NCBI GenBank assembly: GCA_949752745.1
Contig: OX457026.1
Span: 38,606,723-38,670,722, forward strand
Length of the DNA: 64,000 bases
Reading direction: 5' to 3'
Source: Protula sp. h YS-2021
Taxonomy: Eukaryota; Annelida; Polychaeta; Sabellida; Serpulidae
Below are positions 1,701 to 64,000 of this stretch, piece after piece. A model generated the notes under the pieces. That model was not told the origin of the DNA and ran no database searches. It was given only the letters and a program-made list of their open reading frames with translations. Each line of letters opens with the position of its first letter. The stretch's first letter is position 1. The position numbers and the translations under genes are program-made.

Positions 1701-26676
<24,976 letters not shown>

Positions 26677-34224: not shown

Positions 34225-34904
34225 AGTAGTGTGTAAATAAGAGAACCACTGCATAGCAACGCTGTTGCGATAAGAAAACCATTGCATAGCAACGGATGAT
34301 TGTGACGTCATAATCATTGTGACGTCATAACTACGAGAGTTTTGCTGTTGCGATAAGAGAACCACTGCATAGCAACGGATGATTGTGACGTCATAATCAT
34401 TGTGACGTCATAACTGTTGCTATAAGAGAATCACTGCATACAAAGAATTAAGAAACGACATGACCTCTATGAGAACCACTGCATACAAAGAATTAAGAAA
34501 CGACATGACCTCTATCGAAGAAACGACAGAATCACTGCATACAAAGAATTAAGAAACGACATGACCTCTATCAAACGGCGTTGCTAGGACAGTTTCACTG
34601 CAGTGCAGTAGAATCGGCATAGCCCTGCTGCATGAGAGCGAAATGACGAAAAGACCGAAACGTCATGGGCCTGCAGTTATCGCGATAGAGCGAAATGCAA
34701 TACTTGGTGTTTCCGGTTGAGTGTGAAAGGTGGAGAGAGGGGCGGCCGCGGTATTGTGGAGGGGGGAGGGGGATGTGGAGTGTCCGCCGTCGCCGCCGCC
34801 GCGGCCTCCTCCCTCCCTCCCTCCCTGCCCCCACATGAGTTGATTTTTTTTTAAGCCATGTCCCACACTCTCATACATACACACATAGCGCATATGGCTG
34901 TATG
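34225..34904. repeat. Outer arm module of foldback 1 (left)
   Basis: Contains four TGACGTCA sites (34303, 34320, 34386, 34403), repeats of GCATAGCAACGGATGATTG, and a 45-bp tandem unit (ACTGCATACAAAGAATTAAG). It ends in GC-rich triplet-like sequence near 34785-34820. Mirrored at the right end, where one extra 45-bp unit is present. Confidence 0.8.
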
Positions 34905-35870
34905 CATTTTTGTAACATGCCGCCATTTTAACTTTGTAAAAAGTGGAAAAATGAGATAACTTTCGGTATACTTGGTCGATTTGTATGAAAATTTCACTGT
35001 TTGATTCAGTTTTCTATCTAGTTCTGATATAATGTGGTCATAGGCTATTTACGCATGTGGCTGTATGCATATTTGGAACATTCCGCTATTTTAACTTTGT
35101 AAAAAGTGAAAGAGTGAGGATAACTTCCGGTATAGTTGGTGGATATGCATGAAAATTTCACTATTTGATTCAGTTTTATGTAAAGTTTTAACATTAAGTA
35201 GTCACAGGCTATTGACACCGGTGGCTGTATGCATAATGTGACATGCTGCCATTTTAATTTTGTAAAAAGTGAAAAAGTGGGATAACTTCCGCTATGATTG
35301 ACGGATTTGCATGAAAATTTCACTATTTGATTCAGTTTTATGTAAAGTTTTAACATTAAGTAGTCATGGGCTATTTGCACTGGCGGCTGTATGCATAATT
35401 GTAACATACCACCATTTTAACTTAAAAATGAGATAACTTTCGTTATAGTTGACCGATTTGCATGAAAATTTCACCGTTTGATTCAGTTTTGTATAAAGTT
35501 TTGCTATAAAGTGATCATAGGCTATTTGCACATGTGGCTGTATGCATAATTGTAACATACCACCATTTTAACTTAAAAAAATGAGATAACTTCCGCTATA
35601 GTTGACCGATTTGAATGAAACTTTCACTGTTTGGATTCAGTTTTATATCTAGTTTTTTTTTGTTATAATGTAGTCATGGGGCTATTTGCGCAACTGGCAG
35701 TATGCATTTTTGTAACATGCCGCCATTTTAACTTTTGTAAAAAAGTGGTGGGAAAAGTGTGATAACTTTCGTTATGGTTGACCGATTTGGAATGCAAAAT
35801 TTTCACCATTGAATTCAGTGTGATGTCTTAGTTTTTACAGTAGGTTTGGGCATAGGTGGGGGGTTATTGG
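34905..35870. repeat. 150-165-bp tandem units, left arm of foldback 1
   Basis: About six units, each with GGCTGTATGCAT, CCATTTTAACTT, GATAACTTTCG and GAAAATTTCAC. The same unit builds both arms of foldback 2. Matching open frames beginning MLQLCIQP here are repeat translations. Confidence 0.85.
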
Positions 35871-35980
35871 AATGGCGCGCCCCCCCCCCCCCCCACCATT
35901 CAAACATCTGTTTGAATTATTTTTTAAGGAACATATTACGTCAAACTATTGTTCAACAAGTTGTTTAACAATTGTACAAC

Positions 35981-36211
35981 AAATATACCCAACGTCTAGA
36001 ACAAAACGAACATTATCAAACCATTTTAGAAGACTTTAATTACTTTGTTGATGAAAAACATTACGAGTATTCAAAGGCACTAAAGGCGGCTATAAGAAGA
36101 AATGATGCATTCTTTGAAGAGCTTCTAGATGAGGAGGAGGAAGATGAAAGCAGCGACGAAGAAAGTGATATGGATGACAGTGAACAGAGTGAAGCAGATG
36201 AAGAAAAATAG
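35981..36211 (+). pseudogene. Truncated zinc-finger/acidic protein gene in foldback 1
   Basis: Encodes only the last ~80 residues of the 248-residue protein at 49437-50183 (RLEQNEHYQTILEDFNYF through the Asp/Glu/Ser-rich tail), almost identical in sequence. The first ~168 codons, including both zinc fingers, are missing, and the left junction is the inner arm of the foldback. No ATG of its own is near. AATAAA signals follow at about 36230 and 36304. Confidence 0.85.
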
Positions 36212-36374
36212 ACTTATTTGACTAAACTTTATAATAAAGACTTTGTAAATCAACAAATGTTATAATATTGTTATAGATTTAAGCTGTGTGTATTTAAGTG
36301 TATTAATAAAGCTATTCAACATATGTCTTGTTTTTTTCTGAACTGACTGCTATTGCTCCATCAATTGCTTGAAC

Positions 36375-36508
36375 TACAACATGTTGAACAACAACTTGGT
36401 AAACAACATGTTGAACAACATGTTAAACAACTTGTACAACAACATGTTCAACATGTTCAACTTGTTCAACAACATGTTGAACATGTTGAACAACAGCTTG
36501 TTGAACAA
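36375..36508. repeat. AACATGTT palindrome array in foldback 1
   Basis: Tightly packed AACATGTT/AACTTGTT palindromes joined by short GAAC/CAAC links between the gene fragment and the right arm. Confidence 0.85.
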
Positions 36509-38289
36509 TTGTTGTACAATTGTTAAACAACTTGTTGAACAATAGTTTGACGTAATATGTTCCTTAAAAAAATAATTCAAACACATGTTTGAGGGGGGGC
36601 GCGCCATTCCAATAACCCCCCACCTATGCCCAAACCTACTGTAAAAACTAAGACATCACACTGAATTCAATGGTGAAAATTTTGCATTCCAAATCGGTCA
36701 ACCATAACGAAAGTTATCACACTTTTCCCACCACTTTTTTTACAAAAGTTAAAATGGCGGCATGTTACAAAAATGCATACTGCCAGTTGCGCAAATAGCC
36801 CCATGACTACATTATAACAAAAAAAACTAGATATAAAACTGAATCCAAACAGTGAAAGTTTCATTCAAATCGGTCAACTATAGCGGAAGTTATCTCATTT
36901 TTTTAAGTTAAAATGGTGGTATGTTACAATTATGCATACAGCCACATGTGCAAATAGCCTATGATCACTTTATAGCAAAACTTTATACAAAACTGAATCA
37001 AACGGTGAAATTTTCATGCAAATCGGTCAACTATAACGAAAGTTATCTCATTTTTAAGTTAAAATGGTGGTATGTTACAATTATGCATACAGCCGCCAGT
37101 GCAAATAGCCCATGACTACTTAATGTTAAAACTTTACATAAAACTGAATCGAATAGTGAAATTTTCATGCAAATCCGTCAATCATAGCGGAAGTTATCCC
37201 ACTTTTTCACTTTTTACAAAATTAAAATGGCAGCATGTCACATTATGCATACAGCCACCGGTGTCAATAGCCTGTGACTACTTAATGTTAAAACTTTACA
37301 TAAAACTGAATCAAATAGTGAAATTTTCATGCATATCGACCAACTATACCGGAAGTTATCCTCACTCTTTCACTTTTTACAAAGTTAAAATAGCGGAATG
37401 TTCCAAATATGCATACAGCCACATGCGTAAATAGCCTATGACCACATTATATCAGAACTAGATAGAAAACTGAATCAAACAGTGAAATTTTCATACAAAT
37501 CGACCAAGTATATCGAAAGTTATCTCATTTTTCCACTTTTTACAAAGTTAAAATGGCGGCATGTTACAAAAATGCATACAGCCATATGCGCTATGTGTGT
37601 ATGTATGAGAGTGTGGGACATGGCTTAAAAAAATCAACTCATGTGGGGGCAGGGAGGGAGGAGGCCGCGGCGGCGGCGACGGCGGACACTCCACACCCCC
37701 CTCCCCCCTCCACAATACCGCGGCCGCCCCTCTCTCCACCTTTCACACTCAACCGGAAACACCAAGTATTGCATTTCGCTCTATCGCGATAACTGCAGGC
37801 CCATGACGTTTCGGTCTTTTCGTCATTTCGCTCTCATGCAACAGGGCTATGCCGATTCTACTGCACTGCAGTGAAACTGTCCTAGCAACGCCGTTTGATA
37901 GAGGTCATGTCGTTTCTTAATTCTTTGTATGCAGTGATTCTGTCGTTTCTTCGATAGAGGTCATGTCGTTTCTTAATTCTTTGTATGCAGTGGTTCTCAT
38001 AGAGGTCATGTCGTTTCTTAATTCTTTGTATGCAGTGGTTCTCATAGAGGTCATGTCGTTTCTTAATTCTTTGTATGCAGTGATTCTCTTATAGCAACAG
38101 TTATGACGTCACAATGATTATGACGTCACAATCATCCGTTGCTATGCAGTGGTTCTCTTATCGCAACAGCAAAACTCTCGTAGTTATGACGTCACAATGA
38201 TTATGACGTCACAATCATCCGTTGCTATGCAGTGGTTCTCTTATCGCAACAGCGTTGCTATGCAGTGGATCTCTTATTTACACACTACT
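36509..38289. repeat. Right arm of foldback 1
   Basis: Inverse of 34225-35981 at very high identity, including identical reading frames, a ~1.7-kb palindrome in all. Confidence 0.9.
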
Positions 38290-47376: not shown

Positions 47377-47945
47377 AGTAGGTAGGAAAGGACAGAATGA
47401 GCGCACTTTGTGACATCATACTGTCTGAACCGGTAGTGACGTCATTCTGTCTGTTTGATTCTATCTGCTTCAGTTTTTGGATGGAGCGCGCGCGTGTTGG
47501 GATGACGTCATGATGAAGGGTAAACGTCACAGCAGAGTGTGCGTAAACGAAACGTCATTTTGTTTTCGTAATTTGAAATAACGGACTTCCGTTGAAGTGT
47601 GGAACTTTTTTTCTTGAAAGGAAGGAAGAAAATGTTTATTGGAGGTTTGTGAGGGTGTTTTTTGGAAAAAAGCTTACATCAGTTCAAGGCGACGACACCA
47701 TAAAGTGCCTATTGGAAGGTAAGGTTTTTTTAAGCATTTCCCACACACTCTCTCTCCCCGCGCACATATACCAACACCAGGGCAGAGGGTTTCATTTCAT
47801 AAGTCCCCTCTCATAGGTATGTTAACTCCCCGCCAGATGGAGGGCAATTTTTTTCTGTCTCATACGCATACACGCACATAACAACAATATGACAACAAAA
47901 AAGTTAACGATTGATACAACAACAATGGCAGCCATTTCAGTAAGT
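47377..47945. repeat. Outer arm module of foldback 2 (left)
   Basis: Contains TGACGTCA at 47437 and 47503, a GCGCGCGCG run, and an open stretch ending near ACACCAGGGCAGAGGG. Mirrored at about 51990-52567, where the copy carries the same CRE sites. Confidence 0.8.
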
Positions 47946-48990
47946 GGTTTTACTGTATGCATATTTGTAACATGTCACCATTTTAACTGTGTAAAAAGTG
48001 AAAAAGTGGGATAACTTTCGTTATAGTTGACGAATTTGCATGAAAATTTTACTGTTTGATTCAGTTTCATGTAAAGTTTTGTTATAAAGTAGTCCTAGGC
48101 TATTTACACCGGTGGCTGTATGCATAATATGACATGCCGCCATTTTAACTGTGTGAAAAGTGAAAAAGTGAAATAACTTTCGCTATGGTTGGTCGATTTG
48201 CATGAAAATTTCATTGTTTGATTCAGTTTCATGTAACGCTTTGTTATAAAGTAACAACAGGCTATTTGTGCCGGTGGCTGTATGAATAATGTGACATGCC
48301 GCCATTTTAACTTTGCAAAAAGTGAAACAATAAGATAACTTTCGCTATATACTTGGTCGATGTGTATGAAAATTTCACTGTTTGATTCAGTTTTATGTAA
48401 AGTTTTAACATTAAGTGTTATATGCTATTTACGCCGGTGGCTGTATGCATAATGTGACATGCCGCCATTTTAACTGTGTAAAAAGTGAAAAAGTGGGGAT
48501 AACTTAAGCTATAGTTGATCGATTTGCATGAAAACTTTAACCGTTTGATTCGGTTTTATATCTAGTTTTAACATTAAGTAGTCATAGGCTATTAACACCG
48601 GTGGCTGTATGCATAATTGTAACATACCACCATTTTAACTTAAAAATGAGATAACTTTCGTTATAGTTGACCGATTCGCATGAAAATTTCACCGTTTGAT
48701 TCAGTTTTGTATAAAGTTTCGCTATAAAGTGATCATAGGCTATTGGCGCATGTGGCTGTATGCATAACATACCACCATGTTAACTTAAAAATGAGATAAC
48801 TTCCGATTTGGTTGATCGATTTGAATGAAAATTTCACTGTTTGGGTTCAGTTTTATATCTAGCATTTTTGTAACATGCCACCATTTTAACTTTTGTAAAA
48901 AAAATGGAAAAGTGTGATAACTTTCGTTATGGTTGACGGATTTGCATGAAAATTTTCACCATTGAATTCAGTGTGATGTCTTAATTTTAC
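47946..48990. repeat. 150-165-bp tandem units, left arm of foldback 2
   Basis: Six to seven units (GGCTGTATGCATAAT, GACATGCCGCCATTTTAACT). An ~80-bp piece present at the inner edge of the right arm (GGCGCGC, AATATGTTCC) is missing here. Confidence 0.85.
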
Positions 48991-49004
48991 AGTAGTTTGT
49001 TTAA

Positions 49005-49275
49005 CAAGTTGCTTAACAATTGTGCAACAATTGTTCAACAAGCTGTTGTTCAACATGTTCAACATGTTGTTGAACATGTTCAACATGTTCAACATGTTCA
49101 ACAACATGTTCAACAAGTTGAACATGTTCAACATGTTCAACATGTTGTTGCACAAGTTGAACATGTTCAACATGTTGTTGAACATGTTCAACATGTTGTT
49201 GAACATGTTGAACATGTTCAACTTGTACAACAACATGCTGTTTAACAAGTTGTTGTTCAACAAGTTGTAGTTCAA
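49005..49275. repeat. AACATGTT palindrome array, 3' of the zinc-finger gene
   Basis: About 15 copies of the 8-bp palindrome AACATGTT with C/G links, so GAACATGTTC and CAACATGTTG recur. The two frames on each strand are repeat translations. Confidence 0.92.
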
Positions 49276-49317
49276 GCAAAGAAAAAACAAGACATATGTT
49301 GAATAGGTTTATTAATA

Positions 49318-49366
49318 TACTTAAATACACTTAAATACACTTAAATACACTTAAATACACTTAAAA
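49318..49366. repeat. 10-bp tandem repeat
   Basis: Four to five copies of ACTTAAATAC, just beyond the putative poly(A) signals of the zinc-finger gene (TTTATT at 49308 and 49420 on the plus strand). Confidence 0.85.
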
Positions 49367-49436
49367 ACATACAGCTTAAATCTATGACAATATTACAATA
49401 TTTGTTGATTTACAAAGTCTTTATTATAAAGTTTGG

Positions 49437-50183
49437 TCAAATAAGTCTATTTTCTTCATCTGCTTCAGTCTGTTCACTGTCATCCATATCACTTTCTTCG
49501 TCGCTGCTTTCATCTTCCTCCTCCTCATCTAGAAGCTCTTCAAAGAATGCATCGTTTCTTCTTATAGCCGCCTTTAGTGCCTTTGAATACTCGTAATGTT
49601 TTTCATCAACAAAGTAATTAAAGTCTTCTAAAATGGTTTGATAATGTTCGTTTTGTTCTAGACGTTGGGCATATTTGAATAGTCTCATAAACAGTTGTTT
49701 AAGTCGACGCTTATAAATGGGTAGAAAGTCATCACTTGCTATTTCACGCGCATCTTCAAGCCCTTGTTCTTCATATTCTGAAACCTTTTTTTGAAATTTG
49801 GAATCATATTCATCGTAGACTTCTTCAACCATATCATACCAAACAGAGTCTGTTTCTGACTCACTTTCAGATTCTGTTTCTGACTCACTTTCAGAGCTGC
49901 TGTCATCATCACCCTCACCACAATGTTCCATATGTTTGTACAAAGCTTCTTGACTGTTGTATAACGCACCACATTCTGTACAAGCATGTGCATTCTTTTC
50001 AGTCATGTTGACGCTTTGACTTTCCATAGAAGACTCATCTAAAGTTTCAGTGATAGGTGGTTTTACAGGGTTTTCCATATCTATCTCCAATTCTACTTCT
50101 TCTGAAGTGTGAGCATTCTTTAAGTGCCTTTTAAGACTTTGTGGCGAATTGTAAGATTTCAAACAAATGTTGCATTTATACAT
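49437..50183 (-). CDS. Acidic two-zinc-finger protein carried by foldback 2
   Basis: Intact 248-codon, intron-free frame from ATG to TGA. Residues 4-25 are a classical C2H2 finger (C4, C7, H20, H25; CNICLKSYNSPQSLKRH). Residues 68-88 are a second finger of CxxC...HxxxC/HxxH type (C68, C71, H84, H87/C88). A Ser/Glu-rich linker (about 92-112), a helical middle with charged residues (about 113-215) and a very acidic Asp/Glu/Ser C-terminus follow. It fills the centre of the foldback between two AACATGTT arrays; AATAAA lies just past the stop on its strand. The layout suggests a nuclear DNA-binding protein of the element, perhaps a regulator. Function unknown; I do not recognise the family. A truncated near-identical copy is in foldback 1. 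Confidence 0.8.
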   Translation of the reverse strand: MYKCNICLKSYNSPQSLKRHLKNAHTSEEVELEIDMENPVKPPITETLDESSMESQSVNMTEKNAHACTECGALYNSQEALYKHMEHCGEGDDDSSSESESETESESESETDSVWYDMVEEVYDEYDSKFQKKVSEYEEQGLEDAREIASDDFLPIYKRRLKQLFMRLFKYAQRLEQNEHYQTILEDFNYFVDEKHYEYSKALKAAIRRNDAFFEELLDEEEEDESSDEESDMDDSEQTEADEENRLI

Positions 50184-50239
50184 CCTTTCGGTTCAACATA
50201 CACTTTTCAAATGATGAAAAAAGCCTTTAAACATAGCCT

Positions 50240-50370
50240 TATATACAACTTGTTGAACAACATGTTGAACATGTTGAACATGTTCAACAACATTTTGAAC
50301 ATGTTGAACAACAGCTTGTTGAACAATTGTTGCACAATTGTTAAACAACTTGTTAAACAATAGTTTGACG
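50240..50370. repeat. AACATGTT palindrome array, 5' of the zinc-finger gene
   Basis: Inverse counterpart of the array at 49005-49275, ending 60-190 bp upstream of the zinc-finger start codon. It could act as the gene's upstream control region (inference). Confidence 0.85.
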
Positions 50371-50469
50371 TAATATGTTCCTAAAAAATAATTCAAACAC
50401 ATGTTTGAATGGTGGGGGCGCGCGCCATTCCAATAACCCATCTATGCAAACTACTGTAAAATTAAGACA

Positions 50470-51990
50470 TCACACTGAATTCAATGGTGAAAATTTTCAT
50501 GCAAATCCGTCAACCATAACGAAAGTTATCACACTTTTCCATTTTTTTTTACAAAAGATAAAATGGTGGCATGTTACAAAAATGCATACAGCCAGCTGCG
50601 CAAATAGCCCATGACTACATTATAACAAAACTAGACATAAAACTGAACCCAAACAGTGAAATTTTCATTCAAATCGATCAACCAAATCGGAAGTTATCTC
50701 ATTTTTAAGTTAACATGGTGGTATGTTATGCATACAGCCACATGCGCAAATAGCCTATGATCACTTTATAGCGAAACTTTATACAAAACTGAATCAAACG
50801 GTGAAATTTTCATGCAAATCGGTCAACTATAACGAAAGTTATCTCATTTTTAAGATAAATGGTGGTATGTTACAATTATGCATACAGCCACCGTTGTAAA
50901 TTGCCCCTGACCACTTAATGTTAAAACTTTACATAAAACTCAATCAAACAGTGAAATTTTCATGCACATCGACCAACCATAGCGAAAGTTATTTCACTTT
51001 TTCACTTTTTACAAAGTAAAAATGGCGGCATGTCACATTATGCATACAGCCACCGAAGCAAATAGCCTGTGACCACTTAATGTTAAAGCTTTACATAAAA
51101 CTGAACCAAACAGTGAAATTTTCATGCAAATCGGTCAACTATAGCGGAAGTTATCTCATTTTTAAGTTAAAATGGTGGTATGTAACAATTATGCATACAG
51201 CCACATGCGCAAATAGCCTATGGTCACTTTATAGCAAAATTTTATACAAAACTGCATCAAACGGTGAAATTTTCATGCAAATCGGTCAACTATAACGAAA
51301 GTTATCTCATTTTTAAGTTCAAATGGCGGTATGTTACAATTATGCATACAGCCACCGGTGTTAATAGCCTATGACTACTTAATGTTAAAACTAGATATAA
51401 AACCGAATCAAACGGTTAAAATTTTCATGCAAATCGATCAACTATAGCTTAAGTTATCGCCACTTTTTCACTTTTTACACAGTTAAAATTGCGGCATGTC
51501 ACATTATGCATACAGCCACCGGCGTAAATAGCATATAACACTTAATGTTAAAACTTTACATAAAACTGAATCAAACAGTGAAATTTTCAGGCAAATCGGT
51601 CAACTATAACGGAAGTTATCTCAATTTTTCACTTTTCACAAAGTTAAAATGGTGACATGTTACAAAAATGCATACAGCCAGCTGCGCAAATAGCCCATGA
51701 CTACATTATAACAAAACGTTACATAAAACTGAATCAAACAGTGAAATTTTCATGCAAATCGACCAACCATAGCGAAAGTTATTTCACTTTTTCACTTTTC
51801 ACACAGTTAAAATGGCGGCATGTCACATTATGCATACAGCCACCGGTGCAAATAGCCTATGACTACTTTATAACAAAACTTTACATGAAGCTGAATCAAA
51901 CAGTAAATTTTCATGCAAATCGGTCAACTATAACTTTTTCACTTTTTACACAGTTAAAATGGCGACATGTTACAAATATGCATACAGCAA
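50470..51990. repeat. 150-165-bp tandem units, right arm of foldback 2
   Basis: Ten units, with GCATACAGCC recurring at spacings of 146-165 bp. Three units more than in the left arm. Confidence 0.88.
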
Positions 51991-52573
51991 AACCACTTAC
52001 TGAAATGGCTGCCATTGTTGTTGTATCCATTGTTAACTTTTTTGTTGTCATGTTGTTGTTATGTGCGTGTATGCGTATGGAGGCAGAGAAAAAAAATTGC
52101 CCTCCATCTGGCGGGGAGTTAACATACCTATGAGGGGGACTTATGAAAGGAAACCCTCTGCCCTGGTGTTGGTATATGTGCGCGGGGAGAGAGAGTGTGT
52201 GGGAAATGCTTAAAAAAAACCTTACCTTCCAATAGGCACTTTATGGTGTCGTCGCCTTGAACTGATGTAAGCTTTTTTTCCAAAAAACACCCTCACAAGC
52301 CTCCAATAAACATTTTCTTCCTTCCTTTCAAAAAAAAAGTTCCACACTTCAACGGAAGTCCGTTATTTCAAATTACGAAAACAAAATGACGTTTCGTTTA
52401 CACACACTCTGCTGTGACGTTTACCCTTCATCATGACGTCATCCCAACACGCGCGCGCTCCATCCAAAAACTGATGCAGATAGAAACAAACAGACAGAAT
52501 GACGTCACTTCCGGTCCAGACAGTATGACGTCACAAAGTGGGCTCATTCTGTCCTTTCCTACCTACTGCGGTG

Positions 52574-52918
52574 GTTCTGAATAATTATCGTATTTTCTTG
52601 GTAAGATACAAATTGCGACAAGGATTTAATTACGTTTAAGCAAATTGTGATGCCAGCCTTGCCGGTGCGAAATCACGTGTTAGTGTCTATACCGCGTCGA
52701 TATGAGCCGACTGCCTACTATGCGCATATGCAAAACGTGTCAAGTAGTTATCTTAGCACTTTACAGGGTCGTCTATTTATATCTTTATGGGTAGTATTAC
52801 AATAGACCTTTCTAAATTATCTATATCTAACTATATAAAGCACATGACGGCATTTTGAAAGAATCTGACGATGTAGTGCAAAAGAGGTTGCCAGTTAAAG
52901 CCAATCAGGTCAGGCATG
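52574..52918. other. Short spacer between foldback 2 and the LTR element
   Basis: Unremarkable DNA ending in the CATG target site. Nothing coding seen. Confidence 0.5.
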
Positions 52919-53067
52919 TGTTGTGCCTGTTGGGTGAATAGCCGCGCGGCCCCCCTTGATTGACAGTTGAAAACCCGAATGTCATGTGCTTGAAGTAGTG
53001 TGTACCTGGCGGTCTTCGAGAGCGGACATCTTGCCTTAACGTACGCAGTACACGTAAGTTCACTTCA
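52919..53067 (+). repeat. 5' LTR
   Basis: 149 bp, TGTTGTGC...CTTCA. Very short for an 11-kb element. A strong splice-donor motif (CAC then GTAAGT) lies at 53053/53054, near the 3' end. Confidence 0.93.
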
Positions 53068-53068
53068 C

Positions 53069-53086
53069 TGGTACCAGAAGTGAAAC
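53069..53086 (+). promoter_or_regulatory. Primer-binding site
   Basis: TGGTACCAGAAGTGAAAC, one base after the 5' LTR. TGG start and place fit pairing with a tRNA 3' end (CCA). The tRNA identity was not determined. Confidence 0.75.
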
Positions 53087-54806
53087 ATACATTTAAAATA
53101 ATTTATATTTTGATGAGAATTTCGAGTAAACTTCGGTGAGCGAAAACAGAATATTTTCCGGACCAAACGAAAATTTCAGAAGAACTGATATTTGTAAATA
53201 TTCTTTATCCTGGACAATATATATAGAGAGACGAACAAAATACATTCGCTCCAAGTAACCGCTGTTTAAATTGAATTACACTTTACTAACATTTCGTCAT
53301 AGTAATTGGGCGATAGTTCGAGAACTTTACTGTCATGAAATTTTCAACACCTATTTTAAAACATTCCCGTGGATTCGGATTCTTCTGAGGATATTTATAT
53401 TATATTTTCTTATCATTTCAGTGATCTACTACATATCCATATTGAAAATTATATTTAATTCAGTGTTCCCCTTTTCTTTGGCTTTGTAGCCATTACAGTG
53501 CCATACAATGAGCAAGGATGTGAGTACAATCATATTGTACATTACATAATTTATTCATTTATGTAAACATCCTGTAATTACGTGTTTCAGAATTAATTTA
53601 TGTAATTTTCTACTGATTAGAAAAACTGCGAAAACTACATAAAATTGCGAAACCACGATTTCAAAAAGGACAGCGGCCACTTGCTGTGGGCTGTCCGTTC
53701 ATACTTTGAACTTGCTATTCGATAGTGGATTCATTTAGTTCAAAATGTATTATGAAAACTGGTAAAAAGTAAAAAAAAAGAAAAAAGATTTTGAAAGAGA
53801 GGAATAAAGGATTGCTGTAAAAAAAGTCGGGTAAAGTCTTACCGTCATATTTAATTGTGCATGGATGTTCTAGTGCTTGGATTACTTAGTAAGAACTTTG
53901 GATAGACAGATAATGGGACATTGTTAAGTTTACCCGTGCGTGGATATTATTATTTAAGTGATATTGGAGTATTTACATTGAAACACTCGTTTCGATTTCT
54001 ACCACTAATTTGGTAATTATTATTTTCGGTCTTTTTAAATAGATCGAATATTTAGAACCTTACATTAATAAATTTATTTCGAGTGCAAAGAAAACTATAA
54101 ACTTTAAATAATAAATAACACAAAGTGAAGGATACAAAAGACAGTTCCTGGATTTGGATATTTATATGCATCGTTGAATCGTCTTCATGTAATTTCAGTA
54201 AATTAATTATATCAGAATATCATCTCAATCTATCGAAGATCGAAACTTGTGTTACTGTTATTTAAGTGTTTATGTAATTAGGCTTCTGCACATTGACATT
54301 GCTGGAAAATATTTGAAACTGGTAGTCTTTTGATTCATGAGGATCAAAACACGGCATTATATATAATTAAGTTTATTATTCAAGCAACAAAAGCTTAAAT
54401 TTAAGTATTGTTGTTCTTTAAGCATTGACATATATTTCCTATAAGATGCAGTAGATGTGTACGCAGCGTTTCATTCATGAGGCTGAGACAAAAAGACACA
54501 ATTGCAAAAGCTGCATTTATTTTATTATTATCACAGCAAAATACTATCGGCTATACATTTAAAAAAAGTCTTGTTGTAAAAAAATATATTATATATATAA
54601 ACACTGTTATCAGTATCTACATATAGCAAGGCTTGTTTAAACTGACAACACTATTCTTTAGTTGCACATTCTGAATCATCTACTAATACCATTAATATTT
54701 CGAGACAATTTGGAAAACAACTTAAGATCATTATTTTTGAATAGACTTCACTGGTATAGCAAATTAAAAAATACAAATCAGAATCTGGGACTTTCGTCGC
54801 TCAATT
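53087..54806 (+). other. Long untranslated leader with a candidate leader exon
   Basis: AT-rich, many short upstream ATGs, no protein recognised. A pyrimidine tract and TTTGTAG (ends 53489) followed by ATG at 53508 and a GTGAGT donor at 53520 outline a 30-nt exon (53490-53519), possibly used in spliced element RNAs. Confidence 0.6.
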
Positions 54807-57015
54807 ATGAGTACGACCAGGATGCAAACAAGATCTTCTAGATCACATCCAAAAGTTGACATCAATACAGCCTCGGCTGAGGAAATTGATGTAATTATCG
54901 GTTTGCTATCCGATTCAAACAAAATAGTACAATTACGTCGAAACAAACCATGGACCAGGGCAAACTTTTTGAAAACATTTCACTGCTATTCAAGTGAAGC
55001 GGATCGTTTCATATTTACGGAGGACAAAGCTGCTAGTGATCCATCCATTGAGGATGGGGTCAAACGACACGACTGGTGGGATGGTGAATCCCCAGCTCCA
55101 GCGGAGTCACCAGAAAAGCTGAAGATTCCCGAAACTAAATCTATCCATGATGATTTGGCCGATATGCAGCAGCGACTGAGATCTTTAAATCTACCTGAAG
55201 CTTGTGAACGCGGGACGAAATCAGAAGATGGAGCTTTCGATTTTCCCCCAAAATGGGAGAATCCTTCTGGTAAATTGGAAAATCTGTACGATTTCTCAGA
55301 GAACTTGTCTAATCGAATGAAACGATTAGAAGAACATCACGCCGAACAAATGAGGATGATTATGGATCACCACCAATCAAGGATGATGGTGTTGGAGGAC
55401 GAAGTGAGTACAAAATTTTGACAAATAGATAGGCGTTTCGATGCTTTTGAACATAATATTACAACAAATCTGAATACCATTCAGAAAGCAGCCAGACAGT
55501 CAGTCAGCGACACTACAAGGATCTACAGCCATACGAAAAACGCACGACGTCCGTTATTCGACGGATGAGCCGATCGGTAAAACGAAACATACAGCATATA
55601 GGTTTCAGAACACAACCGTGTATGATAGGCCTCAGGCATCCGGTGGAAGGACTTATCCTATACAGCAACCTACCGTGCTACAGTCTCGTTCACCTGAGAA
55701 CGAAGATCGCGATGAAGGTCCTTACTCAGATTACGATACTTACATAAATGGGCAAGAACAAGATGATGATCATAGGCGTGCTCTTTCCATTAACCGTGCA
55801 AGAGGTCAAGGGTCTTTCTTCAATAGAAATAGATCATACCAACAAAGGGATTCTACTCCGAGGCGATCTTTCAACAGAGGACGTACTAGTAACTTGGATA
55901 GCTTACTTGTGGGAAGAAATCTTACTATCGCAAGCAAACCAAAATTACCGGAGTATTACGGCAAAGGTTTATCGAAACCATTCATCACCCAGTTTAACAT
56001 ACATGCCGACATGGGTTCGTGGACGGACGAACAGAAGAGGACAATTATGTTACTCTGTCTGAAGGATCAAGCTGCTGAGTACTACACCATGCAGTATGAG
56101 TTGGATATGACTTTTGATGAAATGTCCCTAAAAATGGAACAACTGTTTGGGAAAAAAGAATTACCCCAAACCATGCGTGTTCAATTTCATAATCTGAAAC
56201 AAACAGCCGACGAGGATCTGCACGAGTGGGCGGAGCGAGTTCAGCGGGTGGCACTAGAAGCTTTTCAAGATGTCAATATCGACGAAACTTATCTGATGGA
56301 GGAGATTGTCAGAAGATTCTGTCAAGGATGCCACGACAAGGAGTTGGCTCAGTACGCTTCTGATAAAAATCTAACGACCCTGGAACAAGCACTTGACTTA
56401 ATGCGCATGCATATGTTTAATACCAAAGCTATCTTTGGCTCAAAGAAGAAAGAAATCTGGCAGGTACAACTCTCAGAAGCGGAGGAGAACATTGACATTC
56501 AACCAGTCAGTGGAGGACGAGGCAAACCGCTGAACGTAAGGGTGAAAAATCTTGAGGGGCAATTTCAGCAATTTGGTAGTACGCTGGAAGAGAAGATGAA
56601 TGATATAATAGAACTGCTTGTCAAGCGGGGAGTTGTTGGCAACAAAGATGTTGATCGAAAGTGGATGGATTCTTCTAATACATCCAAATCTGATCAGAAG
56701 AGGTCAGATTCTCCAGGAGGTAGATCAAGTTCCCCAGTGAAATCCACTGACAGATCGAATTCTCCCACTGCCGGAAAGAGTCATAGATATTCCAGATCAA
56801 GAAGTCCAAGTCCGGGTAATAAAGGAGCGTGTTTCTTTTGTGGTGAACCGGGTCATTTCAGTGCAAAGTGCCCCTACAGAGAAAGAGGTTGATGCTTCTT
56901 TTGTGGGAAGCTGGGTCATTTCAGTGTCAAATGTCCCCACAAAAACAATAGCCAGAAACAGACTGATACTGGAAAATCGGTATCTTTTAAAGAGGATCAT
57001 TTAAACTTGAAGTAG
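54807..57015 (+). pseudogene. gag: gag of the LTR element (broken)
   Basis: Starts at ATG 54807. The N-terminus has a helix-hairpin-helix-like stretch (VDINTASAEEID, residues 17-28). A coiled-coil region (residues ~165-204) is cut by TGA at 55419-55421. A frame change lies near 55480-55560. The second part (55618-56892) holds the capsid-like region (LPEYYGKGLSKPFITQF, HEWAERVQRVALEAF), a Ser/Arg-rich linker and a CCHC knuckle (CFFCGEPGHFSAKC). A second knuckle (CFFCGKLGHFSVKC) follows directly after TGA 56890-56892; the frame closes at TAG 57013. Gag binds and packages element RNA. This copy cannot encode a full product. Confidence 0.88.
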
Positions 57016-58738
57016 GGGTCGAGCTGAAAAATGGCCCGACCTCTTTTCTAAATGATTCATCGGATTCTGATCAAACCCCTTTTAACAATCAAGGAGTCTG
57101 AACGGATGATCTTTGATTCTGATTTTAAAGGGAACAATGAAGAACTGAGTACTGATGCTCAGTTGCAGGAAGGTGCGAAACCAAGGCTAAATGCTGTCAC
57201 GTTTAAAGACACGCAAGACTTACAAACTTTACTTGTAAACCTAAAAATTAATGGACGGTCGACTGTAGCAGTTGTTGACACTGGGGCTCAAGTAACTGTG
57301 TTAAGTCGACAATTTGCCGACTCGATGCGCAAACCCCTACCTGTCAGAAATGAAGTAACCCTCAAAGGGGCGGGCGAAGAACAGTATTTCAATGCACAAA
57401 ACTAGCTCCAAGAGTTCAACTTGAGATTGGTAAAGACATATTCAGTTGGGATATGTTTATAGCACCAATCAGCGACAGTGTTATTCTTGGACTAGATTTC
57501 TTGACATACTCTAAAGCTGTTGTTGATCTTGAACAGAATACCATGACTATTAACAATAGCACAATAGCAGCTTTTGAGAAATGCAATAGTGATACTGAAC
57601 AACCTTATCGTGTGACTAGAGTTACAACGAGAAAAAGATGTGTTATTCCACCAAATACAGCGGCTATAATGACATGTGACTTGGAAAACCCAATAGAGGG
57701 ATTGTATATAGCATATCCCAACTACTGTTCTAAGAAGATAACAGGGAAGGCACTTATTCCTAAGATGTTGTTTCGGAGCAGCATTGAAGGAACTTGCAAT
57801 ATTCTATTCCTGAACGACTCGGATAGACATGTCACTATTCCGAAAAGCTGCACTGTGGGTTCGGCGTGTCAGATTGATGCGGTACTTGAGGAAGAAAAGT
57901 TACCCGATGACTCTGAACTATCCGACTCCGGCTTTCCTATCAAAGACCCTGCTGAACAGTCTGAAATAGAAAAACCCACTCCATGTGTAAGGTCCGCAAC
58001 ATTTGAGGACTCAAATCAGCCAAAAGCTCGAGCCATGCAAGAACATCTTGCGGATATGTTTACAAGGTCATCCGTTAATCTTTCCCCAGAACAGGCTGAA
58101 AGATTTGCAAACCTTCTAGTAGAATTTGCAGATATCTTTGCCAAGAATGATACCGACATCGGTCACTTCAGTGATATCAAATTTAAAATAAATACGGGTG
58201 ATGCAAAACCTGTTCAACATCGTATTCGACGAACTCCTTTAGGCTTCGAAAAGGAAGAAGAAAAGCATCTAAATTCCACGTTAGATAGTAGTGTTATACA
58301 ACCTTGTACTTCGGAATGGGCGAGCGCTCCAGTTTTGGTCCACAAAAAAGATGGCGGATTACGGTGGTGGATTGACTATCGCGATCTGAATTCCAAAACA
58401 ATCAGCGATCAATAGAGAGTTCCCTTGATATCGGAATGCATGGATACTCTAAGCGGCTTCGAATACTTGTCATCTCTCGATTTAGCTTCCGGCTATTGGC
58501 AGTGTGAAATCGATGAAAAAGATCGTCATAAAACTGCATTCATTACTAAGTATTGCTTGTTCGAACATATTAGAATGGGTTTTGGATTAAAGAATGCAAA
58601 GGGTTATGGAGCTAGTATTTAGGGGCATGACCTGGAAAGAAATCCTAGCATATTTAGACGATGTAATTGTGGTGGGAAAGAACTTTGACGACCATTTGAC
58701 AAACCTAGAAAGTTTTTGATCGCTTTCGAAAATTCAAC
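57016..58738 (+). pseudogene. pol: pol 5' part: protease and reverse transcriptase (broken)
   Basis: The aspartic protease core VVDTGAQVTVLS is near 57268-57303 and the partner motif ILGLDFL near 57483. RT follows (WASAPVLVHKKDGG, WIDYRDLN, SSLDLASGYWQ) with the catalytic YLDD at 58651-58662. Lesions: frame changes near 57100 and 57400, TAG at 58413-58415 within RT, a frame change near 58600 just after the GLKNA motif, and another near 58717. The enzymes process Gag-Pol and copy RNA to DNA in intact relatives. Confidence 0.9.
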
Positions 58739-61183
58739 TTGAAACTCAAACCCAAGAAATGCTTCTACTTTCAGAATGAGCTGAAGTTCCTCGGGAAGAC
58801 GGTATCTAAAGAAGGCATCGGCATTAACCCAGAAAATGTAGCCGTTGTGCAGAAGTGGAAAGCACCTGAAAACCGAACTCAAGTTGAAAGATTCCTCGGC
58901 TTTGTTAATTATAATAGAGAGTTCATTAAAGGCTTTGCTATTCTGGCAGAACCTTTGTATAAGCTCACAGGGAAACACGAATTTAGATGGGGTCAGGATG
59001 AGCTATCAGCTTTCGATAGACTTAAGGAAGTTATGACAACAACACCTGTTTTAGCGTACCCAAAACCGAATGATGAATTTATTTTGGACACGGACGCCTC
59101 AAACTACGCTATAGGAGCTGAATTGTCTCAGATTCAAGACGGCAAGGAACGCCCCATTTCTTTTGGAAGTTACGGTCTTACGCCACAGCAAAGACGATAT
59201 TGTACAACCCGAAAGGAACTCCTAGCAATAGTGCGATTTACCAGGCAATATCGCCACTATTTACTAGGTAGGAAGTTCTACATACGTACAGACCACAACA
59301 GTCTCAGCTGGTTGATGCGTTTTAAAATGTTAGACGGTCAGCTTGCGCGTTGGCTTGAAGAGCTTAGCCAATTTGATATGGTGATTGTACACCGGCGAGG
59401 CAAGAAGCACATCAATGCTGACGCTCTTTCACGACTTCCGGAAGAGGAAGCTTGTGACTGTTACAAGGCAGGTGTCTCAGTTTTTGAGTTACCTTGTGGT
59501 GGTTGTAAATATTGTCAGAAACTTCATAGTCAATGGGACAGATTTGAAATCGACGTTGATATTTTACCATTGGCTGTTCGTAAGATCCAGAAGTCAAGCG
59601 AAGAATCATGGCTACCACTTTATGAATCCGAGAGCATCAAGAACTGCCAAAGGAAAGACTCGGATCTCAAAGATGTAATCCAGTGGATTGAAGAAGATAG
59701 AAGTCCATCTGAAGGAGAATATTTTATTTCAAGTAGAGCTACTAAACATTATTGGCTCAACCGTAACTTGATATCCCTGCGTGATGGGTTATTATTCTGG
59801 AAACGGATTGATGAAATACGTGACCGAGATTTGTTGCATGTTCCAAAATTGATGAAAAACGATGTTCTGCAGTATTGCCATGATAATGTGACGGCAGGAC
59901 ACATGGGACAAAAGAAAATAATTCAGAAAATGAAGAAGTGTTTCTACTGGTATAATATGACCACTGACGCAAAACTTTATGTGCAGACATGTAGCGTTTG
60001 CAACCTTAATAACAAGCCTAGGATAAGGGCTAGGGCTGCTCAAGTTTCATATCACAGTGGGGCGCCTATGGAACATGTTCACCTAGACATTTTGGGGCCG
60101 TTCAGACCGAGTAAGCAAGGAAATTCGTATGTACTGGTTATTGTTGATCAGTTTACCAAATGGGTGGAATGTTTTGCGTTGCCTAACCAAACGGCACTCC
60201 TTGTAGCAAAAACAACATTACATGAGTTTTTTGCTAAGTTTGGATGTCCAATTTATTTGCATAGTGATCAAGGACGAAATTTTGATGGAAATGTTTTTAG
60301 AGACATTTGCCAGCTACTGCATATAACCAAACAGCGCACAACTCCGTATAGACCGAGCGCAAATGGACAAGGTGAAAGGTGTAACAGAACTCTTCTTCAA
60401 CTTATTCGCTGCTATCTTAAGGATAATCAGAATAATTGGGATGAACATATTCCACTTCTTTGTGCTGCTATTAGAGCTACCGTCAATAGACAAACTGTTT
60501 TCACACCCAATATGATGATGTTGGGTAGAGAAGTCAGTCATCCTCAGGATATCATGTTTGGAGTTGTGCATCAAAATAAACAATTGGAGGAACCCTCCAC
60601 TTACGTCAAGAATCTATTACTTACCTTGAAAGGTGTTCATACCACGGCGCGCGAACATTTGAAATCCTGTCAGAAACGTCAGAAGAGAGATTATGATGCC
60701 AAGGTGCACGAAAAGCCTTTTCTTGCTGGAGACTTGGTGTATAAACTCAACTCTGCTACAAAAATTGGCCAGTGCAACAAACTTAAGCCTATTTTCAAGG
60801 GACCTCATTTAGTGGTTGAAGTTTTATCACCTGTATTGTTTCTCATTCGAGATCGGAGGAAGACCACCGTCATACATCATGATCGCCTTATCCGATGCGA
60901 CGATAGATCCGTACCGTTATGGATGAGGCAAATGAGACGCAAGTGGTTGACCACGGGTATCACGGATGATTCTTCTAACCATGATATCATTGGTGAGGAG
61001 GATCTTCATTTGGAAAACCTATTTCAAGATTCAGAAGACAAAAATGCAAGTAATGACGTGGAACAATTAGGAACAAAGAATTCTTCTTATAGTCAGGAAG
61101 AATTTAGGCCTTCTGAGGTACTCTCCCGCCATGGTCGTAAGATTAAAGTACCTCAGCATCTAACCAAAGATTATTACCTGTGA
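58739..61183 (+). CDS. pol: pol 3' part: RT thumb, RNase H and integrase (814 open codons)
   Basis: Longest open stretch of the element, still part of a broken pol; it has no own ATG at its edge. Order: RT thumb (FLGKTVSKEGIGINPENV), RNase H (DTDASNYAIGAEL, TTRKELLAI, YIRTDHNSL), the gypsy linker (NADALSRLP), an integrase HHCC zinc domain (H near 59879, CSVCNLNN), and the catalytic core with Asp 60086, Asp 60266 and Glu 60374. That is 59 and then 35 residues between, the classical DD35E spacing. A GPY/F-type module (GPHLVVEVLSP) and a tail ending HLTKDYYL follow. All catalytic residues are visible. Whether any product forms from this copy is doubtful because upstream pol is interrupted. Confidence 0.92.
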   Translation: MKLKPKKCFYFQNELKFLGKTVSKEGIGINPENVAVVQKWKAPENRTQVERFLGFVNYNREFIKGFAILAEPLYKLTGKHEFRWGQDELSAFDRLKEVMTTTPVLAYPKPNDEFILDTDASNYAIGAELSQIQDGKERPISFGSYGLTPQQRRYCTTRKELLAIVRFTRQYRHYLLGRKFYIRTDHNSLSWLMRFKMLDGQLARWLEELSQFDMVIVHRRGKKHINADALSRLPEEEACDCYKAGVSVFELPCGGCKYCQKLHSQWDRFEIDVDILPLAVRKIQKSSEESWLPLYESESIKNCQRKDSDLKDVIQWIEEDRSPSEGEYFISSRATKHYWLNRNLISLRDGLLFWKRIDEIRDRDLLHVPKLMKNDVLQYCHDNVTAGHMGQKKIIQKMKKCFYWYNMTTDAKLYVQTCSVCNLNNKPRIRARAAQVSYHSGAPMEHVHLDILGPFRPSKQGNSYVLVIVDQFTKWVECFALPNQTALLVAKTTLHEFFAKFGCPIYLHSDQGRNFDGNVFRDICQLLHITKQRTTPYRPSANGQGERCNRTLLQLIRCYLKDNQNNWDEHIPLLCAAIRATVNRQTVFTPNMMMLGREVSHPQDIMFGVVHQNKQLEEPSTYVKNLLLTLKGVHTTAREHLKSCQKRQKRDYDAKVHEKPFLAGDLVYKLNSATKIGQCNKLKPIFKGPHLVVEVLSPVLFLIRDRRKTTVIHHDRLIRCDDRSVPLWMRQMRRKWLTTGITDDSSNHDIIGEEDLHLENLFQDSEDKNASNDVEQLGTKNSSYSQEEFRPSEVLSRHGRKIKVPQHLTKDYYL

Positions 61184-61374
61184 AAACCAAATTAATATAA
61201 GAGTAGTTAGTTAAGAGTGCATGCAATATTATTTAAGAATTTACATTAAGAAACAGATCCTAGCATGTTAGATAATAAGAGATGATTCGCCAGTTAAGGG
61301 GATAGGTAGTGTAGTAGATAAAATGTCTTAAGAATAGTGTCATACTTTACAAGACTAAGGTCTTGTCTTTTCAG
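61184..61374 (+). promoter_or_regulatory. Intergenic stretch ending in a strong splice acceptor
   Basis: AT-rich gap after pol. It ends with a branch-like ACTAAG, a pyrimidine tract and TTTTCAG at 61374, directly before the ORF3 reading frame. Confidence 0.6.
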
Positions 61375-62327
61375 AAAATAACGTATCTGCCACCGTTACA
61401 TCGTGATATCCGGTATTTCGGTAGCAAGGCCGACCGAGCAAGAGCGCCTATCGACGATGGCTCCCGCGGATCCGAAATAACGACCAGAGGAACTAGTGAT
61501 AAGAACCCTTCACGACCCGAACAGCCGTCCGGGGCCACTCGTGTTGGTAGCCTCAAGGATCAAGAACAGTCCGTCAGCATTCGTTCTTCTGACGAGGCAA
61601 AGGAAGACTCAGATAATGGCTTCCAACTAGTAGTTCGGAAGAGAGATAGGCGAAGACTTCAGGATTCGAGCCGGCAAAGCCGCCCTGAATTCAGGAGAAG
61701 GTTTGACCATCGTGGTCAAATCGGTTCAAGTGACCGCAAGAGTCGTGCGGCGGAAAGAACACAATGGACGAAAACTTCGACTGAACGGGCCTATCACCCG
61801 TCACCGCTCAACCGACCACAAGTACGTGTGCCATCCCAGGATTTGAGCCGGCAGAGTCTTTCTGATTCACGAGAAGGGTTGACCATCGTGGTCAAACCGG
61901 TTCAGGTGATCGCAGGAGTCGTCAAAGTCGCTCTGAATTCCGGGAAAGGCTTGACCATCGTGGTCAAACCGGGTCAAGAGATTCTCATCATTTTGATAGA
62001 AGTCGTTCTAACCAAAGGGGTCAGGACACCGTTGGAATTATCCCCCTTAGGAATTCTCAGAATACCACCGAGACAGAACCGCCGAGATATCGTCAACCCC
62101 CAAAAGTTGGGGGAGCTGGCCACAGAAATTGCCGGTTTAGAGGCTGTCATGCGAGAATTAATCATCCAAATACGCACGCATTGACGCATCTGCCAACAAT
62201 TTTTGGTGAAACCGATTTAAGGACGCATTTCAATTCTTTTCTGACGTATCTCCTGTGTATGACCTCGATTTTTGAACTGGAAACCCTTAACGACCTGTTG
62301 AGATTTGCAAGAAAAACGGCTCTATGA
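61375..62327 (+). pseudogene. ORF3: basic Arg-rich protein of the LTR element (frameshifted)
   Basis: Open from the acceptor at 61375 with no ATG near its start. The first half is Arg/Ser/Gln-rich and contains imperfect repeats around FRRRFDHRGQIG and RQSRPEFRR, as in nucleic-acid-binding tails. Comparing the repeats shows one base missing in the second repeat near 61850-61875. After that the original frame runs to TGA 62182-62184, while the biologically sensible frame (third repeat, then a Cys/His cluster CRFRGCHARINH and a helical end) continues to TGA 62325-62327. Function unknown; RNA or nucleoprotein binding is a guess from composition. I know no standard gypsy gene like it. Confidence 0.6.
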
Positions 62328-62527
62328 AGAAAACGAGAATTACAAGTTGAAACCGGAAGAGACTGAGCTGTTGTTTGACTTCTGAATAAGCGTTGTTCAG
62401 ATATCGGGCTTGCAGATCGAATTGTCGTTTCGCCGCCGAACTGTGTAGCAGCTCTGCTATACTGGAAGATTCAGCGCTGCCTTTTTAACTGCCTCAACGA
62501 TTCAAAAGTTCGATTCTCCTGAGCAGT

Positions 62528-63586
62528 ATGACGTTTCCAGAAAGTAAACGGCAGGGGATTCAGAGGTCGATGGTAAGTGAAGCCATCGAAAAGTCACGGA
62601 CATTACCTGTTTCGTCTGCTAGTACCCAATCAAAGATGATTGGAGAAGGCAAGAGATCCGATCTCACGGTGGAACTGGATGTGAGGCGTGGTACACAAGC
62701 CATCCGAACTTCATCCTCAAGACCGAAGCTTACGCCTGGGATCGATACCCATTTTCATCCTGATAAGATGGCAGAAAGGTCAACTCAAATGGACAAGGAT
62801 AGGGACTTCGAAAGTCTGCTTGCACTTGAGCCTAGCTGTCCGGGCGATTTCTACCTGGAGAGTGAGGTGGCAGTCTTTTGCTTCCCTCAACAATACCCCT
62901 CGGGTACCATGCGTCACAATTTGCTGAAAGACGGCAGATTGCGTTTCGCTTTTGGAGTACATCCGAAAGCTGCGACATCCGTGACTCCGGGTGTGTTGGA
63001 AGACCTGAGGTTGATGTTGCAGTCCAGAGGTACAGTTGCCTTAGGCGAAATAGGGTTGGATAATTCAAGTTCGACCTGCCCGCGAGAGGATATTCAGATA
63101 AACGCTCTTGTTGACCTGCTTAAGATCGGAAATGAAATCAGGCTTCCGATTATTATTCATTGTCGAGACGAATTGGGTTCGCGTCGTGCGAGCAAAGATT
63201 GTCTCAACTTGATGAGACAACATCTATCTCCCTTCGCGCCCATTCATAGGCATTGCTTCAACGGCGGTTTAGGTGAGTTAAAAGAATGGTTGAGATACTT
63301 CCCAAACACCTTCTTTGGTATTACCGGACTCATCACTAAGAACCTGAAGCATCCTGAGTCATCAGAAGTCATTCGGGAATTAAGAGATATGTCTCGACTT
63401 GTTCTGGAAACGGATGCACCCTATTTGAGACCGGAAGGAGTAGACAATCAGCTGATGAACTCGCCGTACAACATTCCTGTGATTGCTGAGCAAATAGCAG
63501 AAATCTGCCATTGCAGCAGGACGCAGATTCTTCAGGAAACCGTAGAGTCTGCGAGGATGTTGTATCAGATCTCTCCGCTGGATTGA
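62528..63586 (+). CDS. TatD-family metal-dependent deoxyribonuclease carried by the LTR element
   Basis: Intact 352 codons from ATG to TGA. After a ~68-residue Ser/Arg-rich N-terminal extension the TatD barrel begins. Visible ligands: H75 and H77 (GIDTHFHPDK), H145 (FGVHPKA), E174 (ALGEIGLD), H211 (PIIIHCRD), H242 (RHCFNGG) and D296 (LETDAPYL). That is the full two-metal set of TatD nucleases, which degrade DNA 3'-5' or at abasic sites; the animal relative TATDN2 is also active on RNA. It lies between integrase and the polypurine tract, so it belongs to the element. A CAG acceptor-like site ends one base before the ATG, suggesting a spliced message. It is the only undamaged full-length frame of the element. 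A role in clearing RNA/DNA intermediates or host DNA is inference. Confidence 0.93.
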   Translation: MTFPESKRQGIQRSMVSEAIEKSRTLPVSSASTQSKMIGEGKRSDLTVELDVRRGTQAIRTSSSRPKLTPGIDTHFHPDKMAERSTQMDKDRDFESLLALEPSCPGDFYLESEVAVFCFPQQYPSGTMRHNLLKDGRLRFAFGVHPKAATSVTPGVLEDLRLMLQSRGTVALGEIGLDNSSSTCPREDIQINALVDLLKIGNEIRLPIIIHCRDELGSRRASKDCLNLMRQHLSPFAPIHRHCFNGGLGELKEWLRYFPNTFFGITGLITKNLKHPESSEVIRELRDMSRLVLETDAPYLRPEGVDNQLMNSPYNIPVIAEQIAEICHCSRTQILQETVESARMLYQISPLD

Positions 63587-63738
63587 TCATCGATGATCAA
63601 TCGCTTGTAGAATAGTGCGTGGACTGAATAAGCATGTTCAGTCAACGAGTGACAAGTGGGCAATTTAGGCACAACTTATACTGAATAAAGATGTTCAGTT
63701 GTGAGGTTCAGACAGGATAGAGGGCCCATTCCTTTTTT

Positions 63739-63752
63739 AAAATGGGGAAGAG
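63739..63752 (+). promoter_or_regulatory. Polypurine tract
   Basis: AAAATGGGGAAGAG directly before the 3' LTR, the usual plus-strand DNA priming site. Confidence 0.85.
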
Positions 63753-63900
63753 TGTTGTGCGTGTTGGGTGAATAGCCGCGCGGCCCCCTTGATTGACAGC
63801 TGAAAACCCGAATGCCATGTGCTTGAAGTAGTGTGTACCTGGCGGTCTTCGAGAGCGGACATCTTGCCTTAACGTACGCAGTACACGTAAGTTCACTTCA
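63753..63900 (+). repeat. 3' LTR
   Basis: 148 bp, differing from the 5' LTR by three substitutions and a one-base C-run difference. Followed by the CATG duplication (63901-63904). The last ~96 bases of the window are flank with nothing recognised. Confidence 0.93.
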
Positions 63901-64000
63901 CATGTAACGCATTCTTTGCGCTGTTCTAGTGGTATGTTAAGGTGTGATTTGCTGGGACTTGGCTGTTGGGTCTCTCCAAATACTCTTATCAAACTTTACT

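Follow-up and report, generated by a model that had tools for sequence, protein, structure and literature searches.

For most LTR retrotransposons, gag and pol suffice. In the bdelloid rotifers, the LTR retrotransposons Juno and Vesta carry behind pol a third open reading frame (ORF3) that codes for a DEDDy exonuclease (PMC5408684). This is the closest described case that we found to the element presented here, although the enzyme is another one. The two share a general plan, with an extra ORF behind pol that codes for a nuclease and whose catalytic residues are largely kept (in the rotifers, DEDD has become DEED), and, according to the text available from that source, ORF3 copies of Juno and Vesta are closer to other element-borne copies than to host genes (PMC5408684). 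By contrast, the fold is DEDD there and TatD here, and neither 'tatd' nor 'zinc finger' appears as a term in the main text of PMC5408684. In orchids, Ty3/gypsy elements with an m6A RNA demethylase domain likewise have a fixed extra RNA-acting enzyme, but the enzyme is different and the hosts are plants (PMC9289625, accessible part). Ty3/gypsy clades have also been described in molluscs, the host group of the nearest named relatives of our element (PMC6238403); this work seems not to treat extra genes, because 'orf', 'envelope' and 'nuclease' are absent from its available text, which has 'open reading frame' two times. No description of a TatD-bearing retroelement was found in the literature searched, a scope that left aside subscription journals, preprint servers and repeat databases, and 'TatD' occurs 0 times in the accessible parts of PMC8220671, PMC8556966 and PMC8905726. 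Ty3/gypsy elements that have captured an enzyme as ORF3 are a known kind; within the literature searched, TatD appears to be new in this place.

The window that we analysed, a stretch of 64,000 nucleotides from the annelid Protula sp., contains one complete Ty3/gypsy insertion, 10,982 bp long (52919-63900). Two LTRs, a short target duplication, a primer-binding site and a polypurine tract are present, together with the gene order gag, protease, reverse transcriptase (RT), RNase H and integrase, established with Pfam on separate pieces and, for the RT, via tblastn of the pol proteins P0239 and P0240. The features outside ORF3 are as follows.

52915..52918, no strand: target-site duplication CATG, left copy, read in the sequence, the same as 63901-63904
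52919..53067, plus strand: 5' LTR, 149 bp, TG...CA, aligned to the 3' LTR
53069..53082, plus strand: putative primer-binding site TGGTACCAGAAGTG, starting with TGG, read in the sequence and assigned by position
54807..55421, plus strand: N-terminal gag ORF with a weak HHH_3 match (Pfam PF12836, E 0.0011, below its cutoff)
55618..56892, plus strand: gag with a CCHC knuckle (Pfam Retrotrans_gag 1.4e-4, below cutoff; zf-CCHC 4.6e-5)
56893-56941, plus strand: second gag CCHC knuckle, behind a stop (repeat D3)
57052..57405, plus strand: aspartic protease piece (Pfam gag-asp_proteas 3.7e-8)
57453..58415, plus strand: end of the protease, linker and start of the RT (tblastn of P0239 over 57402-58607; match with P0238 at 2e-45; no Pfam match)
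58739..61183, plus strand: end of the RT, RNase H and integrase (Pfam RT_RNaseH 3.9e-33, H2C2 1.6e-17, rve 2.3e-16)
63739..63752, plus strand: polypurine tract AAAATGGGGAAGAG, from sequence and position, before the 3' LTR
63753..63900, plus strand: 3' LTR, 148 bp, TG...CA, aligned to the 5' LTR
63901..63904, no strand: target-site duplication CATG, right copy, read in the sequence

The TGG that opens the primer-binding site is the complement of the CCA at the 3' end of a tRNA. Between the two LTRs, 145 of 148 aligned bases are identical (3 differences), and there is one gap (K 0.0205). With so small a divergence in its LTR pair, and with frame changes in pol (near 57.40, 58.60 and 58.71 kb, as seen from P0239 and P0240, which span 57133-61174 including the reverse transcriptase), this copy is dead but young. 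An initial annotation had proposed an LTR retrotransposon with a TatD nuclease between integrase and the 3' LTR, and the LTRs, the CATG duplication, the primer-binding site, the polypurine tract and the Pfam domains bear this out.

Among the best 120 of 839 pol relatives, the closest are pol proteins at 54%, and Mytilus edulis reaches 48%. The integrase ends in a tail of the type (R)xGRxxxxPxxLxxDY, common to the pol relatives (15 tails compared). The helix-hairpin-helix domain HHH_3, weakly matched in the first gag piece, is also listed for M. edulis P0338, beside gag and integrase domains (precomputed domains). A match of P0001 over 34 residues inside gag (E 0.008) was put down to chance. 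The sole contig obtained when genome contigs were searched with the pol alignment is PIVK01000084.1, a 5.4-kb bacterial MAG contig with a Ty3-type pol, 34% to P0239, probably as contamination from a eukaryote; the match ends in the integrase, and the contig is uninformative on ORF3.

Elsewhere, the window holds two mutually related inverted-repeat structures (34261-38170 and 47377-52567), which may be foldback or TIR transposons. The arms of the first measure about 1.7 kb and share 95% identity, those of the second about 1.5 kb and 93%; the second structure spans an ORF of 248 aa with C2H2-like motifs on the minus strand (49437-50183). There are also two tandem arrays, 14273-15583 and 5177-10123, whose self-matches are shifted by about 55 bp in the first and 26 bp in the second; the latter gives rise to long repetitive ORFs on the minus strand, apparently mere by-products of the repetition.

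Between integrase and the 3' LTR, the pieces of ORF3 are distributed as follows.

61375..61878, plus strand: part a, basic and Arg/Ser-rich, with no ATG, starting at the candidate 3' splice site TCTTGTCTTTTCAG/A (acceptor rank 4 of 746)
61668..61981, plus strand: three 66-nt repeats (DHRGQ... units, family D1), the frame being lost within the second repeat (read by eye)
61866..62324, plus strand: part b, C2H2-like finger CRFRGCHARINHPNTHALTH and helical region (family N-terminal HMM, E 4e-4)
62379..62519, plus strand: part c, SPPNCVAALLYWKIQRCLF motif, the HWRI region of the family (family N-terminal HMM, E 1e-6)
62528..63586, plus strand: TatD domain, in a frame that differs from that of parts b and c and is open from 62489

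In the initial annotation, the TatD ORF was accompanied by an 'unknown basic ORF' taken as a separate gene. The comparison with related proteins leads elsewhere. Stretches 61866-62324, 62379-62519 and 62528-63583 match the proteins of one family in order, first over a C2H2-like finger, then over the region with the HWRI motif and last over TatD. The two N-terminal E-values were computed over the element's own open pieces, a small set in which the next-best piece reaches E 0.21, and the value of part b comes from two short stretches, the finger and the helical part; on the pieces of the element, the TatD profile covers 62489-63583 at E 4e-76. When P0135, one of the 36 rows from which the HMM was built, is compared with the 11-kb element by tblastn, it matches 61980-62510 (E 2.6e-8). 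Because the N-terminal family HMM and the TatD profile match in order, the basic ORF and the TatD ORF are, judged from their sequence, pieces of one broken gene. These ordered matches, with that of P0135, rule out the basic ORF as a gene of its own: it codes for the N-terminal portion of the TatD protein and has been interrupted by lesions. The breaks are stops at 62325, 62364 and 62376, a frame change within the repeats and another one before TatD. The second CxxC part of the finger region (TACWxC) has no match in the window, and it is absent too from P0131 and P0135. Once restored, the protein would comprise an Arg/Ser-rich basic N-terminus, a C2H2-like finger, a conserved helical region of the type '...PPNxVAxLxHWRI...' and the TatD nuclease.

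The TatD part matches PF01026 with 133.7 bits, against a gathering score of 27. The seven residues that we take to be its metal ligands (HxH, H, E, H, H, D) are 7/7 kept in the window, at the positions H75, H77, H145, E174, H211, H242 and D296 where they had already been noted. In the predicted structure, this part takes the TatD barrel fold; the N-terminal region was folded only jointly with it, and the TatD part heads the resulting match list. By Pfam as by predicted fold, the domain is TatD, and no match to the DEDD family was found in ORF3 or in TatD. In the viral structure library, a single protein, from Yasminevirus, matched with E 0.001 or below.

How the gene might be expressed is indicated by its beginning. 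ORF3 has 0 Met in its first 173 codons. In a scan with a splice-site consensus, the sites of which are predictions, the acceptor at its start (61375) is surpassed, among the 746 AG sites of the element, by acceptors that include two inside pol, and upstream there is a candidate leader in phase with 61375.

53490..53519, plus strand: candidate leader mini-exon, with an acceptor of rank 5 of 746, then ATG AGC AAG GAT at its end, and a GTGAGT donor of rank 5 of 422

The lack of an ATG in 173 codons, the good 3' splice site at the start and the in-phase leader ATG suggest that ORF3 was made from a spliced subgenomic RNA, in which the upstream exon would supply the start codon. Gene models P0238 and P0222, described below, likewise jump from early pol to TatD. 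In the rotifer LTR elements, ORF3s are said, in the text available, to be typically expressed from spliced messages (PMC5408684).

Relatives came from two protein searches, one starting from the TatD ORF (best 120 of 945) and one from a small alignment (best 120 of 127), which together gave 238 different proteins. The family to which the window gene is related displays one or several C2H2-like fingers, a helical stretch, a motif like SPPNxVAxLLHWRILAxLI and TatD, mostly in 430-860 aa. Its N-terminal profile draws on 36 rows of alignment A3, which has 38 rows in all and a low mean column identity (15%); the nearest relative compared shares about 40%. At E up to 0.01, the profile matches 50 of 358 proteins, 36 of them its own builders and 14 others. 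The window has both features of the family, the finger and HWRI regions before TatD (in a gene broken by stops and frame changes) and a TatD placed inside the family clade. The host gene TATDN2 of vertebrates and arthropods has a TatD domain of the same superfamily, and 31 of the 38 named TATDN2-type proteins also have a long N-terminal extension, of more than 150 residues before TatD (the other 7 are too short there). The trees place the window family in a separate clade, and the finger/HWRI region was found in none of these 38 proteins, some of which are partial. Four further proteins (P0008-P0011) have TatD behind zinc-binding motifs as well, but these are two gag-type CCHC knuckles, and the proteins group with TATDN2, not with the window family.

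Some finger-TatD proteins depart from the common size or architecture. P0179, which stands for 21 member sequences, has a C-terminal NADAR domain (Pfam 3.2e-19), and P0202 aligns to it across this region, itself without a NADAR match. P0196, P0201, P0206 and P0229 have 804-862 aa and long, unassigned N-terminal regions, and these regions could be further element or host proteins.

What would such a protein do for a retrotransposon? TatD enzymes are described as 3'-5' exonucleases acting on single-stranded DNA and RNA, and human TATDN1 and TATDN3 also as AP endonucleases (PMC12709183, available part). The basic and finger parts of ORF3 would hold the protein on the RNA or the cDNA of the element, and the TatD metal site would trim or cut RNA or single-stranded DNA. 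Its likeliest substrates would be RNA:DNA hybrids, flaps or leftover primers from reverse transcription or integration. Given a basic N-terminus rich in Arg and Ser, with a net charge of +12 over part a, the finger and the lack of a strongly hydrophobic segment, we tentatively see in it a putative accessory nuclease working on the intermediates of these two processes; this is the role that we deem most likely, at somewhat more than one chance in three. Ranked second, and carrying perhaps a quarter of our belief, is a role of the same gene in counter-defence, where the nuclease would destroy small RNAs of the host, transcripts involved in silencing or nucleic acid that competes with the element, or relieve R-loops at the transcription units of the element. 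The NADAR domain of P0179, and the alignment of P0202 to it, would fit this role. NADAR domains have been linked to host-virus conflict. A role in counter-defence also agrees with what is known of TATDN2, an RNase that acts on R-loops and resolves them, and the loss of which harms primordial germ cells in medaka (PMC12709183, available part). However, the basic and finger parts would suit packaging with the element's RNA equally well.

Does the gene belong to the element lineage, or to the host? Each of the 238 proteins from the TatD searches was compared with ten pol proteins and with three pol pieces of the window. Ty3 pol pieces accompany a family TatD in 3 of these 238, and pol always precedes TatD.

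P0236, Mytilus edulis: integrase tail before TatD (best E 8e-23)
P0238, M. galloprovincialis: protease-RT linker and RT start before TatD (2e-45 with a window pol piece)
P0222, Saccostrea cucullata: protease before TatD (best E 2.5e-7; 2e-5 with the window's piece)

P0222 has no N-terminal profile match and is a family member by its TatD part only. The tail of M. edulis P0337 was considered as a fourth such chimera and rejected, its best family match reaching only E 0.24. Among the matches listed, M. edulis has at least five separate family clusters (P0133, P0148, P0150, P0157 and P0236). Pol is present in 3 of 14 family members and in 0 of 38 TATDN2-type proteins (Fisher p 0.016), in a sample of 52 named animal proteins hand-picked from the matches listed and split by best match. 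This value is soft, since gene models can be in error and habits of annotation vary from one animal group to another. Bivalve annotations may retain more transposon genes than vertebrate ones. Conversely, none of the best 120 of 839 pol relatives has TatD or the N-terminal region, which is neutral, as it is expected if ORF3 is a separate frame. Viral contigs gave no match with TatD, the integrase piece or the pol alignment, and the TatD alignment A2 led to 4 loci at 22-27% identity; contigs of equal length among the TatD and pol matches, sought by eye, yielded a single pair (length 2119), too short for both genes.

These data bear on the possibility that finger-TatD is a fast-evolving, multi-copy host family of invertebrates that an element took up once, the bivalve chimeras being errors of prediction beside unrelated insertions. 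The scarcity of pol (3/238, or 3/14 named family members) agrees with it, as do the long and different N-termini of P0206, P0196 and P0201; linkage outside the window rests on three predicted gene models, and prediction can join exons wrongly. By contrast, the three chimeras come from two mussel species and an oyster, all have pol then TatD, and their pol pieces match the window's own pol pieces. We consider a host family of this kind unlikely, at roughly one chance in eight.

Slightly less probable still, at about one in nine, is a one-off capture, in which a host TATDN2-like gene would have been taken up behind pol by read-through or template switching, either by this copy alone or by a small number of copies within a single host, with no role in the element. 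In the 50-row tree, the window groups with P0131 and P0001 (bootstrap/SH-aLRT 99/91), and a split with 100/99 separates the family, window included, from the rows of TATDN2, of CCHC-TatD and of bacteria. The same picture emerges from a quick tree of 93 rows, with SH-aLRT 98 for the family, the window and six further rows, and 95 for TATDN2 with CCHC proteins. A tree in which the window TatD is held with TATDN2 and CCHC-TatD narrowly escapes rejection by the AU test (p 0.055), a result which one-off capture can claim for itself, together with the fact that a single complete element was examined. The trees nevertheless appear to set the finger-HWRI-TatD family apart from the host gene. Against capture by this copy stand the clade that excludes TATDN2, the N-terminal region found in none of the 38 named TATDN2-type proteins, even though most of them have room for it, and the bivalve pol-TatD gene models. 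The same models and trees counter the alternative foreseen in the initial annotation, a TatD captured only in this copy. Relatives joined to retrotransposon genes in models from two mussels and an oyster argue that the capture of TatD was probably not a one-off event, and that TatD is probably a standing part of a retrotransposon lineage. As for an env-like gene in which the TatD part would be incidental, it has the position of env and, putatively, its spliced expression in its favour, but it is ruled out for practical purposes by the predicted TatD barrel and by the absence of any strongly hydrophobic segment in ORF3, where, on hydropathy only, the top 19-residue Kyte-Doolittle mean is 1.32 in four window pieces and 1.67 in seven relatives.

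The reading that we prefer, and hold with about three chances in four, is that of a young, dead Ty3/gypsy copy, the ORF3 of which codes for one basic-finger-HWRI-TatD protein, inherited within the element lineage rather than acquired by this copy from a host TATDN2 gene. The lineage with ORF3 would then also be present in bivalves and in metagenomic sources. A broader view, to which we give even odds, is that a large and ancient pool of finger-TatD genes, some with NADAR, is the spliced third gene of Ty3-type elements across invertebrates, that many bivalve annotations as 'putative deoxyribonuclease TATDN2' or 'tatD' are retrotransposon ORF3s, and that TatD was recruited for retrotransposition. 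In the giant squid Architeuthis dux, a TATDN2 gene is found beside ZMYM1 and a pogo-type gene among the non-Hox genes of the Hox cluster (PMC6962438, available part); it may be a copy of such an element gene. If this is true, part of the TATDN2-like annotation of invertebrates would be transposon content. And a lineage keeping a TatD of its own would, if true, point to a step of the life cycle (removal of hybrids, trimming of flaps or primers, repair at integration, or counter-defence) beyond what pol and the host provide.
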